From: Sphingobacteriales bacterium | GTDB taxonomy: Bacteria > Bacteroidota > Bacteroidia > Sphingobacteriales > Sphingobacteriaceae | DNA length: 42,642 nt | Direction of reading: 5' to 3' | NCBI GenBank assembly: GCA_947505035.1 | Contig: CANNIS010000004.1 | Span: 1 to 42,642 of the forward strand | In this document: piece by piece, positions 3,904 to 42,478 of the stretch | Layout of the letters: every line of letters starts with the position of its first letter | How positions within the stretch are numbered: the stretch's first letter is position 1 | Position numbers and translations under genes: made by a program | The notes under the pieces: model-generated | The model's database searches: none | The model's input: only the letters and a program-made list of their open reading frames with translations | Told to the model about the DNA's origin: nothing

Positions 3904-4981
3904 TTAAAATTCCATCAAATAAGCCTTGATGAAGGGATTCAATTCTCCGTCTAAAACTCCCTGTGCATTAGAGGTTTCCATATTTGTTCTCAGGTCTTTT
4001 ACTAATTTATAGGGGTGAAGCACATAGTTTCTAATTTGAGAACCCCATTCTATCTTCTTTTTAGTGCTTTCTACGGCTTGTTTGGCTTCGTTTTTCTTGC
4101 GCAATTCCAATTCGTATAATTGAGACTTCAACATTTTTAATGCTTTTTCTTTATTCTGATTTTGCGAACGCTCTTGTTGACATTCAATGATGATGCCAGA
4201 AGGTGCGTGTTTTAAACGAACGGCTGTTTCTACTTTATTTACATTTTGTCCACCCTTGCCGCCCGCTCTAAAAGTATCCCAACTTACATCTGCTAAGTTG
4301 ATATCAATTTGAATAGAATCATCTACCAAAGGATATACATACACCGAAGCAAAAGAAGTGTGCCTGCGCGCATTCGAATCGAAGGGCGAAATTCTAACCA
4401 ATCGGTGCACACCTGATTCACCTTTTAAATAACCGTAAGTAAATGCACCTTCAAACTCTAAAGTGCAAGATTTAATGCCGGCGCCTTCTCCAGCTTGGTA
4501 ATCTATTTCTTTTACTTGATAACCATTTTTTTCGCCCCACATAATATACATACGCATGAGCATTGCCGCCCAATCACAGCTCTCCGTTCCACCTGCGCCT
4601 GCATTAATAGTCAGTACTGCGTTGAGTTGATCTTCTTCTCCACTCAACATATTTTTAAATTCTAATTCGTCGAGTGCTTTCCAAGCAATGCCCATCTGGC
4701 TAAGCATTTCGGGCTCTTGCGCCGCGCCGTCTTTATAGAATTCATAAAGCACAATGGTGTCTTCGACTGTTGCATTTACCAATGTAAAGGCTTCGGTCCA
4801 AACTTTTTTAGCTTTAATTTGATGTAAGATTTTCTCTGCAACTTTTTGGTCATCCCAAAAATCTGCTGCAAGTGTTTGAGCCAATTCTTGCTCAATCTCC
4901 ACTAGTTTTTGATCGATGTCAAAGATGCCTCCTCAGAGATGTAATGCGATCTCTTAAATCCTTGATTTGTTCGTTGGTCAT
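3904..4981 (-). CDS. prfB: Peptide chain release factor 2, expressed by programmed +1 frameshift
   Basis: RF2 recognises UGA and UAA and triggers peptide release in the ribosome. The gene is in two frames. A 20-codon leader from the ATG at 4981 ends in CTT-TGA, and the remaining frame runs from 4920 to 3904. With a +1 shift at CTT the product is about 358 residues, normal for RF2. The main frame carries the anticodon-like SPF in [15 protein letters not shown] and the catalytic GGQ in [23 protein letters not shown] at 4902 would give a 332-residue product lacking the N-terminus and is not the real start. Read-through at the internal UGA gives autoregulation: scarce RF2 favours shifting. A -7-like element TATTTTTG lies only 4 bases upstream of the ATG. 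Confidence 0.97.
4918..4933 (-). promoter_or_regulatory. prfB programmed +1 frameshift site
   Basis: On the minus strand the sequence reads AGGAGG-CAT-CTT-TGA-C. A Shine-Dalgarno-like AGGAGG (4933-4928) sits three bases before the slippery CTT (4924-4922), followed by in-frame TGA (4921-4919) and then C. This is the E. coli prfB arrangement with only minor base changes (AGGGGG-TAT-CTT-TGA-C). It is the clearest Shine-Dalgarno-like element in the window, in a genome whose start codons otherwise lack them. Confidence 0.95.
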
Positions 4982-35976: not shown

Positions 35977-36876
35977 ATGCACATTCCAAGAAACCTTAAA
36001 AAAGGCGATACAGTAGGTATTTTAAGTACCGCGCGTAAAATAAATGCAGCTGCACTGCAATTTACCATCAATTTATTAGAAAATTGGGGGCTAAAAGTAG
36101 TTTTAGGCAGCAGCATTGGTCTGGCCCATCATCAATTTGCGGGTACTGCCGAACAAAGATTAGCTAATTTTCAGGAATTTTTAGATGATGACAACATAGC
36201 TGCCATTTTATGTGCTCGAGGTGGTTATGGTACCTTGCAAATAATTGACGATATCAACTGGGACCATTTTTTAAAAAATCCAAAATGGATTTGCGGATTT
36301 TCGGATGTAACCGTTTTACATTCGCATTTAACAACACTTGGCGTTGCAAGTATCCATTGCTCCATGCCTTCGCTTTTCCCTACTGAAACAGATCACGAAA
36401 CTTTACACTCGATACGTCGTGCATTGATGGGCGAAAGCAATGAAATTTCGTTTCCAGTGTCTGAGTTTAATAAAGCAGGAGATGCAGAAGGAAATTTAGT
36501 TGGCGGAAATTTATCTTTGGTTTATGCATTACAAGCAAGCGATAGTGATATTGATACCAATGGAAAAATATTATTTCTAGAAGACCTAGATGAATATATA
36601 TATCACATCGACAGAATGATGATTAGTTTAGATCGTGCAGGAAAATTAAAAGGCCTGAAAGGTCTATTAATAGGAGGCATGACGGCTATGAAAGACCACG
36701 AAATTCCATTTGGCAATAAGGTTGAAGAAATTATTTTAGGGGTTTGTGAAAAATATAATTTCCCCGTTTATTTTAATTTTCCGGCTGGCCATTTGGATTT
36801 TAATTTTGCCTTAAAATTACAGTGCCCTGTAAAAATTACATGCAAAAACGATCGCGTACATTTTCAACAAATTTAA
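35977..36876 (+). CDS. ldcA: LD-carboxypeptidase (murein tetrapeptide carboxypeptidase), family S66
   Basis: The 299-residue enzyme removes the terminal D-Ala from murein tetrapeptides in the cytosol so that the tripeptide can be reused. It has the S66 hallmarks: LCARGGYGTLQIID, the nucleophile Ser109 in CGFSDVTVLH, a candidate glutamate at 202 in LFLEDLDEYIYHIDRM and His272 in FPAGHLDFN, giving a Ser-Glu-His triad. There is no signal peptide, consistent with a cytosolic recycling role. The stop codon directly abuts the stop of the convergent amylase gene with no base between them. Confidence 0.93.
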   Translation: MHIPRNLKKGDTVGILSTARKINAAALQFTINLLENWGLKVVLGSSIGLAHHQFAGTAEQRLANFQEFLDDDNIAAILCARGGYGTLQIIDDINWDHFLKNPKWICGFSDVTVLHSHLTTLGVASIHCSMPSLFPTETDHETLHSIRRALMGESNEISFPVSEFNKAGDAEGNLVGGNLSLVYALQASDSDIDTNGKILFLEDLDEYIYHIDRMMISLDRAGKLKGLKGLLIGGMTAMKDHEIPFGNKVEEIILGVCEKYNFPVYFNFPAGHLDFNFALKLQCPVKITCKNDRVHFQQI

Positions 36877-39081: not shown

Positions 39082-39107
39082 GGCTATTTTGTAAAACGAA
39101 TTAGTAG

Positions 39108-39179
39108 TGGCCCCTACAGGAATCGAACCTGTACCGAGAGAACCGGAATCTCCCATTCTATCCATTAAACTAAAGGGCC
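39108..39179 (-). tRNA. tRNA-Arg (anticodon CCG)
   Basis: The minus strand folds as a 72-base cloverleaf. The acceptor GGCCCTT pairs with AGGGGCC (one T-G), with discriminator A. The anticodon stem GGAGA/TCTCT encloses TTCCGGT, giving anticodon CCG (reads CGG). The T arm is ACAGG-TTCGATT-CCTGT. The CCA end is not encoded (next bases CTA). It is on the same strand as, and only 26 bases upstream of, the GH13 gene. Confidence 0.95.
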
Positions 39180-39298
39180 ATAAAGTGTCTCAAAGATGCA
39201 AAATATCCACGATTTGTCTATATTTTTTAGCAATTCGCCTTAATATTGAAACTTAACACAGATTTTAATTATATTTAATATTACACTAAACCAAAATT

Positions 39299-42200
39299 AT
39301 GAAATTAAAACATTTACTCTTTTTGTTTTGTGCTATTTTATTTATCCAATCAGAATTAATAGCACAAACAACCGTAACCATTCCAACTGCAAATACAGGA
39401 GTTACCATTACTGGTAATGCAGCTACAACTATCAGAAGAAAACCTTTGGGTAGTAATCGTTCTTACGAAAGAACTGCCATTAAATATACACAAGTAGAAG
39501 TTGGTTCGCTTGGTAATATTAGCGGCCTTGCTTTTTATTGCGATACCGTTTTAAACCCAGGCAGAACACCTGTAAAAATTTACATCAAAGAAGTAGCAGA
39601 TACTACTTTTACGGCAAGCACTGTTGCTGCTGAAGAAGCGGGCGCTACACTCGTTTTTGCAGATACTTTAAATTCAACTTTATTTGTAAAAAATACTTGG
39701 GTGCCGATTACTTTTAGCACGCCTTTTTTACATGCTAATCAAACCAATATTGAAATAATTATTGAAACAAATTCTGGCGGAACAGCTGGTTCAGATTTAA
39801 CTGCACTTGCTAAAGGATTTAGATTTTCTACTAAAGGCTTAGTGAATAGTACACAGTATTGGCAAAGTGCTACGGGTAGTAGCACCCCTCCAACAACAAA
39901 TGGTACGCTCACTAATTTTAGACCAAATATTCAGTTAACAATTACCACTGCGCCAGCTTGTACTACGCCTCCAAATGCAGGTACAGCTTTAAGTTCGGCG
40001 ATTGCTGCTTGCGTGGGCACTAACTTTACTTTATCTCTTTCGGGCTCAAGTACCGGTTTAGGTTTAACCTACCAATGGTTGTCTTCTACAAATAATACTT
40101 CTTGGGATACCATCGTTGGTGCAACATCTGTTGTATATCAAACTAACCAAGCCATTGCAAAATATTACGCTTGTATTATTCAATGTAATGGACAAAAAGA
40201 TACCTCGAATTCGGTTAATGTAACAATGAATCCTTTTTACAATTGTTATTGCATTACTAATTTAGGTAATAGTTGTACAGGTGGTCAAGGAACCGCTATC
40301 GACTCAGTTTCTTTCACAAATACTACATTAGCAAAAGGTAGCACAGGCTGTGCAACCGGCAGCTACATTGCGTATCCGGCTTCAGGAAATACTACTGCAA
40401 GTTTAACGCAAGGTGAAACGTATACCTTGAGTAATAAATTTACTGGTTCAGTAAAATCATCGGTGTGGATTGACTACAATAGAAATGGAATTTTCGAAAA
40501 TTCAGAATGGAAACAATTGAGTTTAACTTCTGCAACTGGAACCGTAATCAATAATAACATCAGTATTCCTGCAAATGCGCAAGCAGGTATTACCGGTATG
40601 CGTATCAGAACAAGATCAGCTAATTCAACAAACGATTCTACTTCGGCTTGTACCAACTTTAATAACTCTGGCGAAACAGAAGATTATTTAATTACCATTG
40701 TTGCGGCAAGTGCATGTATTGCACCGCCAAACCCAGGTGTGTTAAGTGTTACAGACACCCTTACTTGTGCAAATAGTCCAGTAACTTTTAGCATTACGGG
40801 TAATACCATTGGTACTGGTCAAACTTATACTTGGTATAGTTCTACAGACAATACCAATTGGACTGCAATTACTGCAGCAACAGATAAAGTTTATTCTACT
40901 GCTTTAAGTGCAAATGGTTTTTACAAATGTGTGATTACTTGTAGTACACTTAGTGCAACTACCAATGTGGTTCAAGTAAATGTAAAAGCTTTTAGCGATT
41001 GTTATTGCGTAAGTGGCATAGGCGGAAATTGTACTACTCAAGCAACAGCCTTAGATTCATTAGCTATTGAAGGAACAACTTTAGATAATGGCAATACCGG
41101 TTGCGGAACAGCTGCCTATAATTCTTTCCCTAATTCTGGCAGTACTACTGGAACTTTAATGCAAGGACAAAATTATATTTTGAAAGCTAAATTTAGTGGT
41201 GCTGCTAGGGCATCTGTTTGGATTGATTATAACCATAATGGTAAATTTGATAATTCGGAATGGCAACTAATTTGTACAAGTAGTGTAGCGAATGTTGCAT
41301 TAAGTGCAAATTTAAATATTCCTTTGACGGCCTTAACAGGTGAAACAGGCATGCGAATTCGTACCCGTGCTACAAATGGCGTTATCGACTCAACAGTTGC
41401 TTGTGCTGCATTTGGTTCGGGCGAAACAGAAGATTATAAAATTAATATTATTCAAGCAACTGCTTGTATTGCACCGCCGAATGCTGGAAATGTAGTGGCT
41501 TCTAAATCGGCATTATGCCCAGGCGGAATTGTTAATTTAGCTGTTAAAGGAAATACAATTGGCTTAGGACAAACTTACCAATGGATTAAATCTTCGGATG
41601 GAAAAAATTGGACAAACATGACTAGCCAATCTTTGAGTACAAAAGACACCGTGAACACGGCTACTTATTATGCATGTGTATTAACATGTTCGAATTTAAA
41701 TGATACTACCGCAGCACAATTGGTAAAGACTAATCCATTCTACAATTGTTATTGCACCTCAACATTAGGTGGCGGCTGTGTTACCTCATTGACTTCGATT
41801 GATTCTGTTAACATTACTAACACGACTATGCATTTCGGATTTACGGGTTGTTCTTTAAATAATTATGCATCGTATCCAGATTCTGGAAATTCAACAGCTA
41901 GTTTACATAAGAATTTTACTTATGAATTAGTAACGAAATTTGCTGGCGTGTCTAGAGCTGGTCTATGGATTGATTTTGACCACAGTGGATCTTTTGATGC
42001 TGCCGAATTTATTTCGATTACAGATACTTCTATTTTAGATTCTGTTACCCAATCATTCATCAGTATTCCTGCCAATGCGCAAATGGGTAAAACAGGTATG
42101 CGTATTCGTACTAGAGCAGTTGCTGGAACGCTTACTGCAACTGATGCTTGTTCGCAATTTGGGTCTGGCGAAACAGAAGATTATGTAATTACCATTGATA

Positions 42201-42478
42201 CTTTTGTAGTGCAAGGTTTACAAAATATATTAGCAGATAACTTTGTAAAAATTTATCCAAATCCAGCTGCAAACCAATTGAATGTTGTTCAATTGAAAAA
42301 CAAGTCTGGTAAAATAAATATTTATGATTTAAATGGTAGGTTATTGATGACCGAAAAATTAAGTGATGGTTTAAATGTTATTTCTACAGAACAATTAAGT
42401 TCAGGAATTTATTTCTACCATTATATTGATGCAAATAATAATGGTTTATCAAATGGTAAAATTGCCATTGTAAAATAA
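39299..42478 (+). CDS. Secreted T9SS adhesin-like protein with three Ig-like/GEVED modules
   Basis: The 1059-residue protein has a signal peptide (residues 1-23, ending SELIAQ), an N-terminal beta-sandwich (about 25-215) and three tandem modules of about 250 residues starting near 219, 471 and 720. Each module has an Ig-like part (YQWLSSTNNTSWDTI, YTWYSSTDNTNWTAI, YQWIKSSDGKNWTNM), a cysteine-rich NCYC turn, and a GEVED domain with WIDYNRNGIFENSEW (about 390), WIDYNHNGKFDNSEW (640) or WIDFDHSGSFDAAEF (889), closing in SGETEDY. A type IX sorting domain follows (976-1059: KIYPNPAANQLNVV, GIYFYHYID). It probably acts at the surface or in matrix or adhesion; no enzyme motif is visible. Own terminator downstream. 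Confidence 0.93.
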   Translation: MKLKHLLFLFCAILFIQSELIAQTTVTIPTANTGVTITGNAATTIRRKPLGSNRSYERTAIKYTQVEVGSLGNISGLAFYCDTVLNPGRTPVKIYIKEVADTTFTASTVAAEEAGATLVFADTLNSTLFVKNTWVPITFSTPFLHANQTNIEIIIETNSGGTAGSDLTALAKGFRFSTKGLVNSTQYWQSATGSSTPPTTNGTLTNFRPNIQLTITTAPACTTPPNAGTALSSAIAACVGTNFTLSLSGSSTGLGLTYQWLSSTNNTSWDTIVGATSVVYQTNQAIAKYYACIIQCNGQKDTSNSVNVTMNPFYNCYCITNLGNSCTGGQGTAIDSVSFTNTTLAKGSTGCATGSYIAYPASGNTTASLTQGETYTLSNKFTGSVKSSVWIDYNRNGIFENSEWKQLSLTSATGTVINNNISIPANAQAGITGMRIRTRSANSTNDSTSACTNFNNSGETEDYLITIVAASACIAPPNPGVLSVTDTLTCANSPVTFSITGNTIGTGQTYTWYSSTDNTNWTAITAATDKVYSTALSANGFYKCVITCSTLSATTNVVQVNVKAFSDCYCVSGIGGNCTTQATALDSLAIEGTTLDNGNTGCGTAAYNSFPNSGSTTGTLMQGQNYILKAKFSGAARASVWIDYNHNGKFDNSEWQLICTSSVANVALSANLNIPLTALTGETGMRIRTRATNGVIDSTVACAAFGSGETEDYKINIIQATACIAPPNAGNVVASKSALCPGGIVNLAVKGNTIGLGQTYQWIKSSDGKNWTNMTSQSLSTKDTVNTATYYACVLTCSNLNDTTAAQLVKTNPFYNCYCTSTLGGGCVTSLTSIDSVNITNTTMHFGFTGCSLNNYASYPDSGNSTASLHKNFTYELVTKFAGVSRAGLWIDFDHSGSFDAAEFISITDTSILDSVTQSFISIPANAQMGKTGMRIRTRAVAGTLTATDACSQFGSGETEDYVITIDTFVVQGLQNILADNFVKIYPNPAANQLNVVQLKNKSGKINIYDLNGRLLMTEKLSDGLNVISTEQLSSGIYFYHYIDANNNGLSNGKIAIVK
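39957..42200 (+). repeat. Three tandem about 750-base coding repeats inside the GEVED gene
   Basis: The modules begin at about 39957, 40713 and 41461. Modules 1 and 3 are closest at DNA level. CAGTATTCCTGC-AATGCGCAA occurs at 40561 and again at 42061, and TCTGGCGAAACAGAAGATTA recurs near 40669 and 42166, a spacing close to 1500 bases. The middle module has diverged more. Confidence 0.85.

Follow-up and report, generated by a model that had tools for sequence, protein, structure and literature searches.

In all six genomes of the genus, the gene of a secreted GH13 amylase directly follows a tRNA-Arg(CCG) gene in the same orientation, and the best explanation of this arrangement, in our judgment a fairly likely one, is a tRNA-mRNA dicistron in which the amylase would be co-transcribed from the tRNA promoter. 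The window, that is, the whole stretch of 42,642 nucleotides that was analysed, is one contig of a 1.68-Mb draft genome of a Sphingobacteriales bacterium. The host group is uncultured and apparently of freshwater origin; the isolate names of several relatives resemble lakes. The dicistron was already proposed in a first-pass annotation of this DNA, and four lines of evidence speak for it, namely, the conserved gene order, the lack of a terminator, the conserved DNA before the tRNA and the variable spacer behind it; the lack of a promoter box in that spacer turned out to be weak evidence.

The coordinates of the features are collected in Table 1. The tRNA has no encoded CCA, and its 3′ end reads ...GGGGCCA/CTACT. 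The ARAGORN call (39107-39179, minus strand) includes C39107, which is added compared to the Rfam match and may be an encoded C74. The amylase ATG (39081-39079, minus strand) is located 26 nt past the discriminator base and 25 nt past the tRNA end called by ARAGORN; the 26 bases given in the first-pass annotation for the distance from the tRNA to the ATG on the same strand are borne out by the Rfam coordinates. Among the tRNAs of this genome for which a same-strand CDS was found within 300 nt, none has its CDS closer than these 25 nt.

Table 1 Features of the tRNA-amylase locus (window positions).
Feature	Positions	Strand	Remarks
Secreted GH13 amylase, 734 aa	36877..39081	(-)	Signal peptide, X25/CBM-like domain, catalytic domain, type IX secretion tail
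Spacer, 26 nt, predicted mRNA leader	39082..39107	(-)	Without terminator, without -7 box, predicted unstructured
False N-terminal extension, 28 codons	39082..39165	(-)	Runs from the ATG at 39165, within the tRNA, up to the true start codon; frame not conserved
tRNA-Arg(CCG)	39108..39179	(-)	Rfam RF00005, 60.2 bits; discriminator base A39108
Candidate -7 box CATCTTTG	39191..39198	(-)	11 nt before the tRNA; 5 of 6 to TAnnTTTG
Conserved pre-tRNA block around TAGACAAATCGTGGATATTTTGCATCTTTG	39191..39224	(-)	29/35 alignment columns invariant in 6 genomes

The protein is, as had been claimed, a secreted amylase: both a GH13 domain (Pfam Alpha-amylase, PF00128, E=4.9e-106) and a C-terminal sorting tail of the type IX system (PF18962; TIGR04183, 43.4 bits vs the cut-off of 23) were matched, along with a pullulanase X25 domain. 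None of the NCBIfam GH13 equivalogs among the matches listed reaches its own cut-off, so that "amylase" is to be read as a family-level name. Codon usage offers no link between the two genes and such a link was ruled out: the amylase contains no CGG codons in any of the six genomes and, therefore, tRNA-Arg(CCG) is not needed for reading it. On its other side, the amylase gene is convergent with an S66 peptidase gene, and the two stop codons abut at 36876/36877, with no bases between them.

The first-pass annotation had warned of a false 28-residue N-terminus, and this warning holds. Upstream, the amylase frame stays open as far as the ATG within the tRNA, and a start there would place 28 further residues, MDRMGDSGSLGTGSIPVGATTNSFYKIA, ahead of MPRKLFK. 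The fused frame is open in the window and in two relatives (G004 and G001), as would be expected if the true protein of 762 aa began there. However, a TAA within the spacer stops it in G005 and G002, and in G003 it is out of frame, whereas the ATG with the signal peptide is kept in all six genomes. The longer protein would also bury the signal peptide, and its extension is a translated tRNA. With the frame lost in three of the six genus members, a translation start inside the tRNA is ruled out, its probability being negligible.

Conservation of the junction is strict within the genus and ends at its border. The spacer after the discriminator base measures 26, 26, 26, 26, 20 and 27 nt in the six genomes (G000 to G005). 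A scan of the named collection yielded 79 amylase loci, of which five apparently duplicate contigs of G001-G005, to judge from their identical lengths (57607, 16589, 171354, 18876 and 25313), and do not count as independent; one more (L115) holds the missing part of the split G003 gene. None of the 73 more distant loci has a tRNA ahead of the amylase; three of them (L094, L095 and L129) have less than 200 nt upstream, L080 carries a tRNA-Met after the amylase and L111 a tRNA-Leu on the opposite strand. No tRNA was found at 23 of the amylase loci from whole genomes (L008-L030) either. In the reciprocal search, which matched tRNAs in 53 of 61 family genomes, 17 tRNA-Arg(CCG) loci outside the genus are among the matches listed, and none of these is followed by this amylase. 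A terminator-like hairpin is present within 75 nt past the tRNA in 13 of the same 17 loci (among the matches listed), which is why the loss of the terminator after tRNA-Arg(CCG) looks derived. Only in the genus was the tRNA seen to abut the amylase directly, with its terminator lost; conservation of the neighbourhood in relatives, which the first-pass annotation had suggested checking, is complete within the genus and was found at none of the loci compared outside it. If the genus is young enough, the gene order may persist without function.

In the sister genus genome G027 (L178, G027:C236), a GH13 gene, tRNA-Arg(CCG), metG and an S66 peptidase gene share one 14-kb contig. The order differs: the GH13 gene (44% identical) comes first, followed by a lipoprotein-like ORF and then by tRNA-Arg(CCG). 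From this, the linkage may be older than the genus.

Most of the tRNA units in this genome are terminated. In a scan of the 70 nt after each tRNA, 18 of the 23 showed a strong hairpin followed by a T-run, and a 19th terminator, with a longer loop, was recognised by eye after tRNA-Gln. Within the same 70 nt, no terminator was found for the remaining four, tRNA-Arg(CCG), Cys, Arg(CCT) and Leu(GAG), and for tRNA-Arg(CCG) none was found in any of the six genus genomes. The last result bears on the possibility that read-through is minor, most transcripts being trimmed or stopping where the tRNA ends, and expression of the amylase being weak or accidental. A secreted enzyme, indeed, need not track tRNA levels; however, nothing terminator-like follows the tRNA in six of six genomes, and the amylase is 78-96% identical within the genus and intact, bar the one copy split across contigs (G003). 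We consider minor read-through quite unlikely.

Two of the tRNAs just mentioned have neighbours that are worth recording. At L042 (G000:C3) and L175 (G001:C24), tRNA-Gln is followed by a terminator-like hairpin and then, 58-61 nt past the tRNA, by a prs-like ORF. This distance leaves little room for a promoter, so that partial read-through is possible. At L053 and L166-L170, tRNA-Leu(GAG), for which no terminator was found in our genome, precedes a gene that we take to be mnmA-like, with a TATCTTTA box before its ATG; the distance is 80-100 nt at the loci whose ORF was read.

The probable promoter of the tRNA-amylase unit, judged from its sequence, is the conserved block before the tRNA: invariant columns in the six genomes number 29 of 35 in this block vs 6 of 33 in the spacer. 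The -7 box of Bacteroidota is TAnnTTTG, according to passages in PMC7366714 and PMC6847099, and 19 of the 22 other tRNAs in this genome have a perfect copy within 60 nt. With a matrix score of 4.9, compared to 7.0 for the 95% level of random 60-mers, CATCTTTG is not significant alone, and no clear -33 element was seen by eye before tRNA-Arg(CCG). In G001, the corresponding box is CATCTTTA, and another site scores best there. Nevertheless, eight of the 17 family tRNA-Arg(CCG) loci outside the genus (among the matches listed) carry TATCTTTG or TATCTTTA, that is, TATCTTT(G/A), 6-10 nt before the tRNA. The box CATCTTTG gains weight because boxes occupy a similar place in these loci and because the surrounding block is invariant. 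A scan for E. coli-type promoters gave 8 sites vs 4.7 expected by chance and was set aside, Bacteroidota using other boxes. The conserved block is located in the stretch at 39191-39298 between two divergent units, the tRNA-amylase pair and a type IX cargo gene with GEVED domain (1059 aa, 39299-42478), and may serve both.

Could the amylase have a promoter of its own over the tRNA gene or the spacer, perhaps one read by an alternative sigma factor, with the adjacency to the tRNA being a matter of genome compaction only? The statement in the first-pass annotation that no promoter fits between the genes stands in so far as the spacer alone is too short for a whole promoter, and fails in so far as part of a promoter could lie within the tRNA gene. 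No promoter box was seen when tRNA plus spacer were scanned: the best score is at most 0.8 in all six genomes, compared to a random median of 3.0 for that length, which argues against an own promoter. This evidence is weak because the -7 box is a poor detector: only 2 of the 19 CDS starts tested in the window have a perfect box within 80 nt and the other 17 lack one. Undetected or alternative-sigma promoters are possible, and an alternative box, TAnnTTGY, is described for Flavobacterium psychrophilum in passages of PMC9723704. An SM5-like box in the window, TATTTTGC, fits this pattern and overlaps the conserved block, and is a possible candidate for an alternative promoter. The small genome (1.68 Mb) is consistent with compaction. 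However, the spacer varies from 20 to 27 nt with few invariant columns, and a promoter of this kind would still sit downstream of an unterminated tRNA unit. On balance, an own promoter appears unlikely.

Under the dicistron, RNA polymerase would start just before tRNA-Arg(CCG), find no terminator and run on into the amylase gene. RNase P would cut the 5′ end of the tRNA and RNase Z would cut after the discriminator base, CCA not being encoded. The amylase mRNA freed in this way would carry a 5′ monophosphate, begin with an unstructured leader of about 26 nt and, like mRNAs of other Bacteroidota, be translated with no Shine-Dalgarno sequence. We infer from the sequence a working promoter before the tRNA, one transcript across both genes and no other promoter for the amylase. 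The main 5′ end of the amylase mRNA would be made by RNase Z; its release at the tRNA 3′ end is suggested by the missing CCA and by an RNase Z gene, which scores above the cut-off of its family in all six genus genomes, both of which are only permissive. Cleavage after the discriminator base would leave 26 nt, or 25 nt if C39107 stays on the tRNA, and the leader plus the first 40 nt of coding sequence has a predicted fold of 0.0 kcal/mol (two sequences tried). A predicted leader of 20-27 nt is of ordinary size as judged by Flavobacterium, a permissive comparison: passages in PMC9723704 give a median of 24 for F. psychrophilum, and passages in PMC6847099 a mean of 33 for F. johnsoniae. Arrangements of this kind are known; what is unusual is the passenger gene.

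tRNA-mRNA units of Escherichia coli include thrU-tyrU-glyT-thrT-tufB, tyrT-tpr and metY-nusA, as well as secG-leuU, in which the tRNA comes last. As in these units, the tRNA and the amylase gene are on the same strand with no terminator between them, and a shared promoter and separation by tRNA-processing enzymes are to be expected. Unlike in E. coli, the passenger has no role in translation or housekeeping but encodes an amylase secreted by the type IX system, the spacer is only 26 nt and CCA is not encoded. Given the missing CCA, RNase Z rather than exonuclease trimming would be expected to set the amylase mRNA 5′ end. Dicistronic tRNA-mRNA transcripts of plants (PMC8166872) likewise combine tRNA and mRNA, but these are nuclear transcripts connected to mRNA movement between tissues, neither of which applies here. 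A literature search, with mainly plant and mitochondrial results, found no bacterial case of a tRNA-Arg-amylase pair, which is not proof of its absence in print.

A second candidate unit was traced in the same genome, where tRNA-Cys(GCA) is followed after 35 nt by an ORF of 46 aa encoding a basic protein, MAVTRLKRKDRKNKTVSRL... (G000:C14:18435-18679; loci L044 and L181). Relatives of this ORF are present in 56 of the 61 family genomes, and tRNA-Cys is upstream of it in 28 of the 29 distinct family loci examined (including L183-L205 and L207-L210). At the 29th locus (L182), ARAGORN reported no tRNA-Cys, and a partial tRNA match stops one base from the contig end. In the 24 tRNA-Cys loci analysed, the spacer is 14-101 nt long and contains neither a terminator nor a perfect box; a perfect TAnnTTTG precedes the tRNA in all 24, and a terminator is located past the ORF in 22. 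The layout is the same as in the tRNA-amylase unit, for which it serves as a precedent from the same genome: a -7 box, a tRNA, a short terminator-free spacer and an ORF. The tRNA-Cys unit differs in being family-wide rather than genus-wide, in its passenger of 46-59 aa and in the terminator that comes after it. Beyond the family, 21 other sampled genomes of the class contain relatives of the ORF at E up to 0.01, some of them weak, and at loci L215-L236 ARAGORN found no tRNA-Cys. The protein has no Pfam or NCBIfam match and no PDB match at E up to 10; our guess of a known ribosomal protein was dropped. By its sequence features, the pair is a candidate for a family-wide tRNA-mRNA dicistron.

Elsewhere in the window, at ~4919-4926 on the minus strand, an AGGAGG-like stretch and then CTTTGAC immediately precede the annotated start of a release-factor-2-like ORF (3904-4902, minus strand). 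This site resembles the known programmed +1 frameshift of prfB, in which case the listed GTG start of the ORF would be wrong.

Together, the two units raise the possibility, a tentative and rather doubtful one, that the loss of terminators time and again lets tRNA units of this family capture protein genes, and that some of these genes, such as those behind tRNA-Cys and tRNA-Arg(CCG), would be kept by selection, with RNase Z making the mRNA 5′ end and expression following the tRNA promoter and, hence, the growth rate. For annotation, the amylase locus shows clearly how a tRNA can act as a gene-start trap: a gene caller could extend the frame straight across it. If the dicistron is real, a secreted polysaccharide-degrading enzyme would be coupled to the promoter of a tRNA instead of to its own substrate, and the 5′ end of its mRNA would be made by a tRNA-processing enzyme. 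The family-wide tRNA-Cys layout would let this mechanism be tested in any culturable member.
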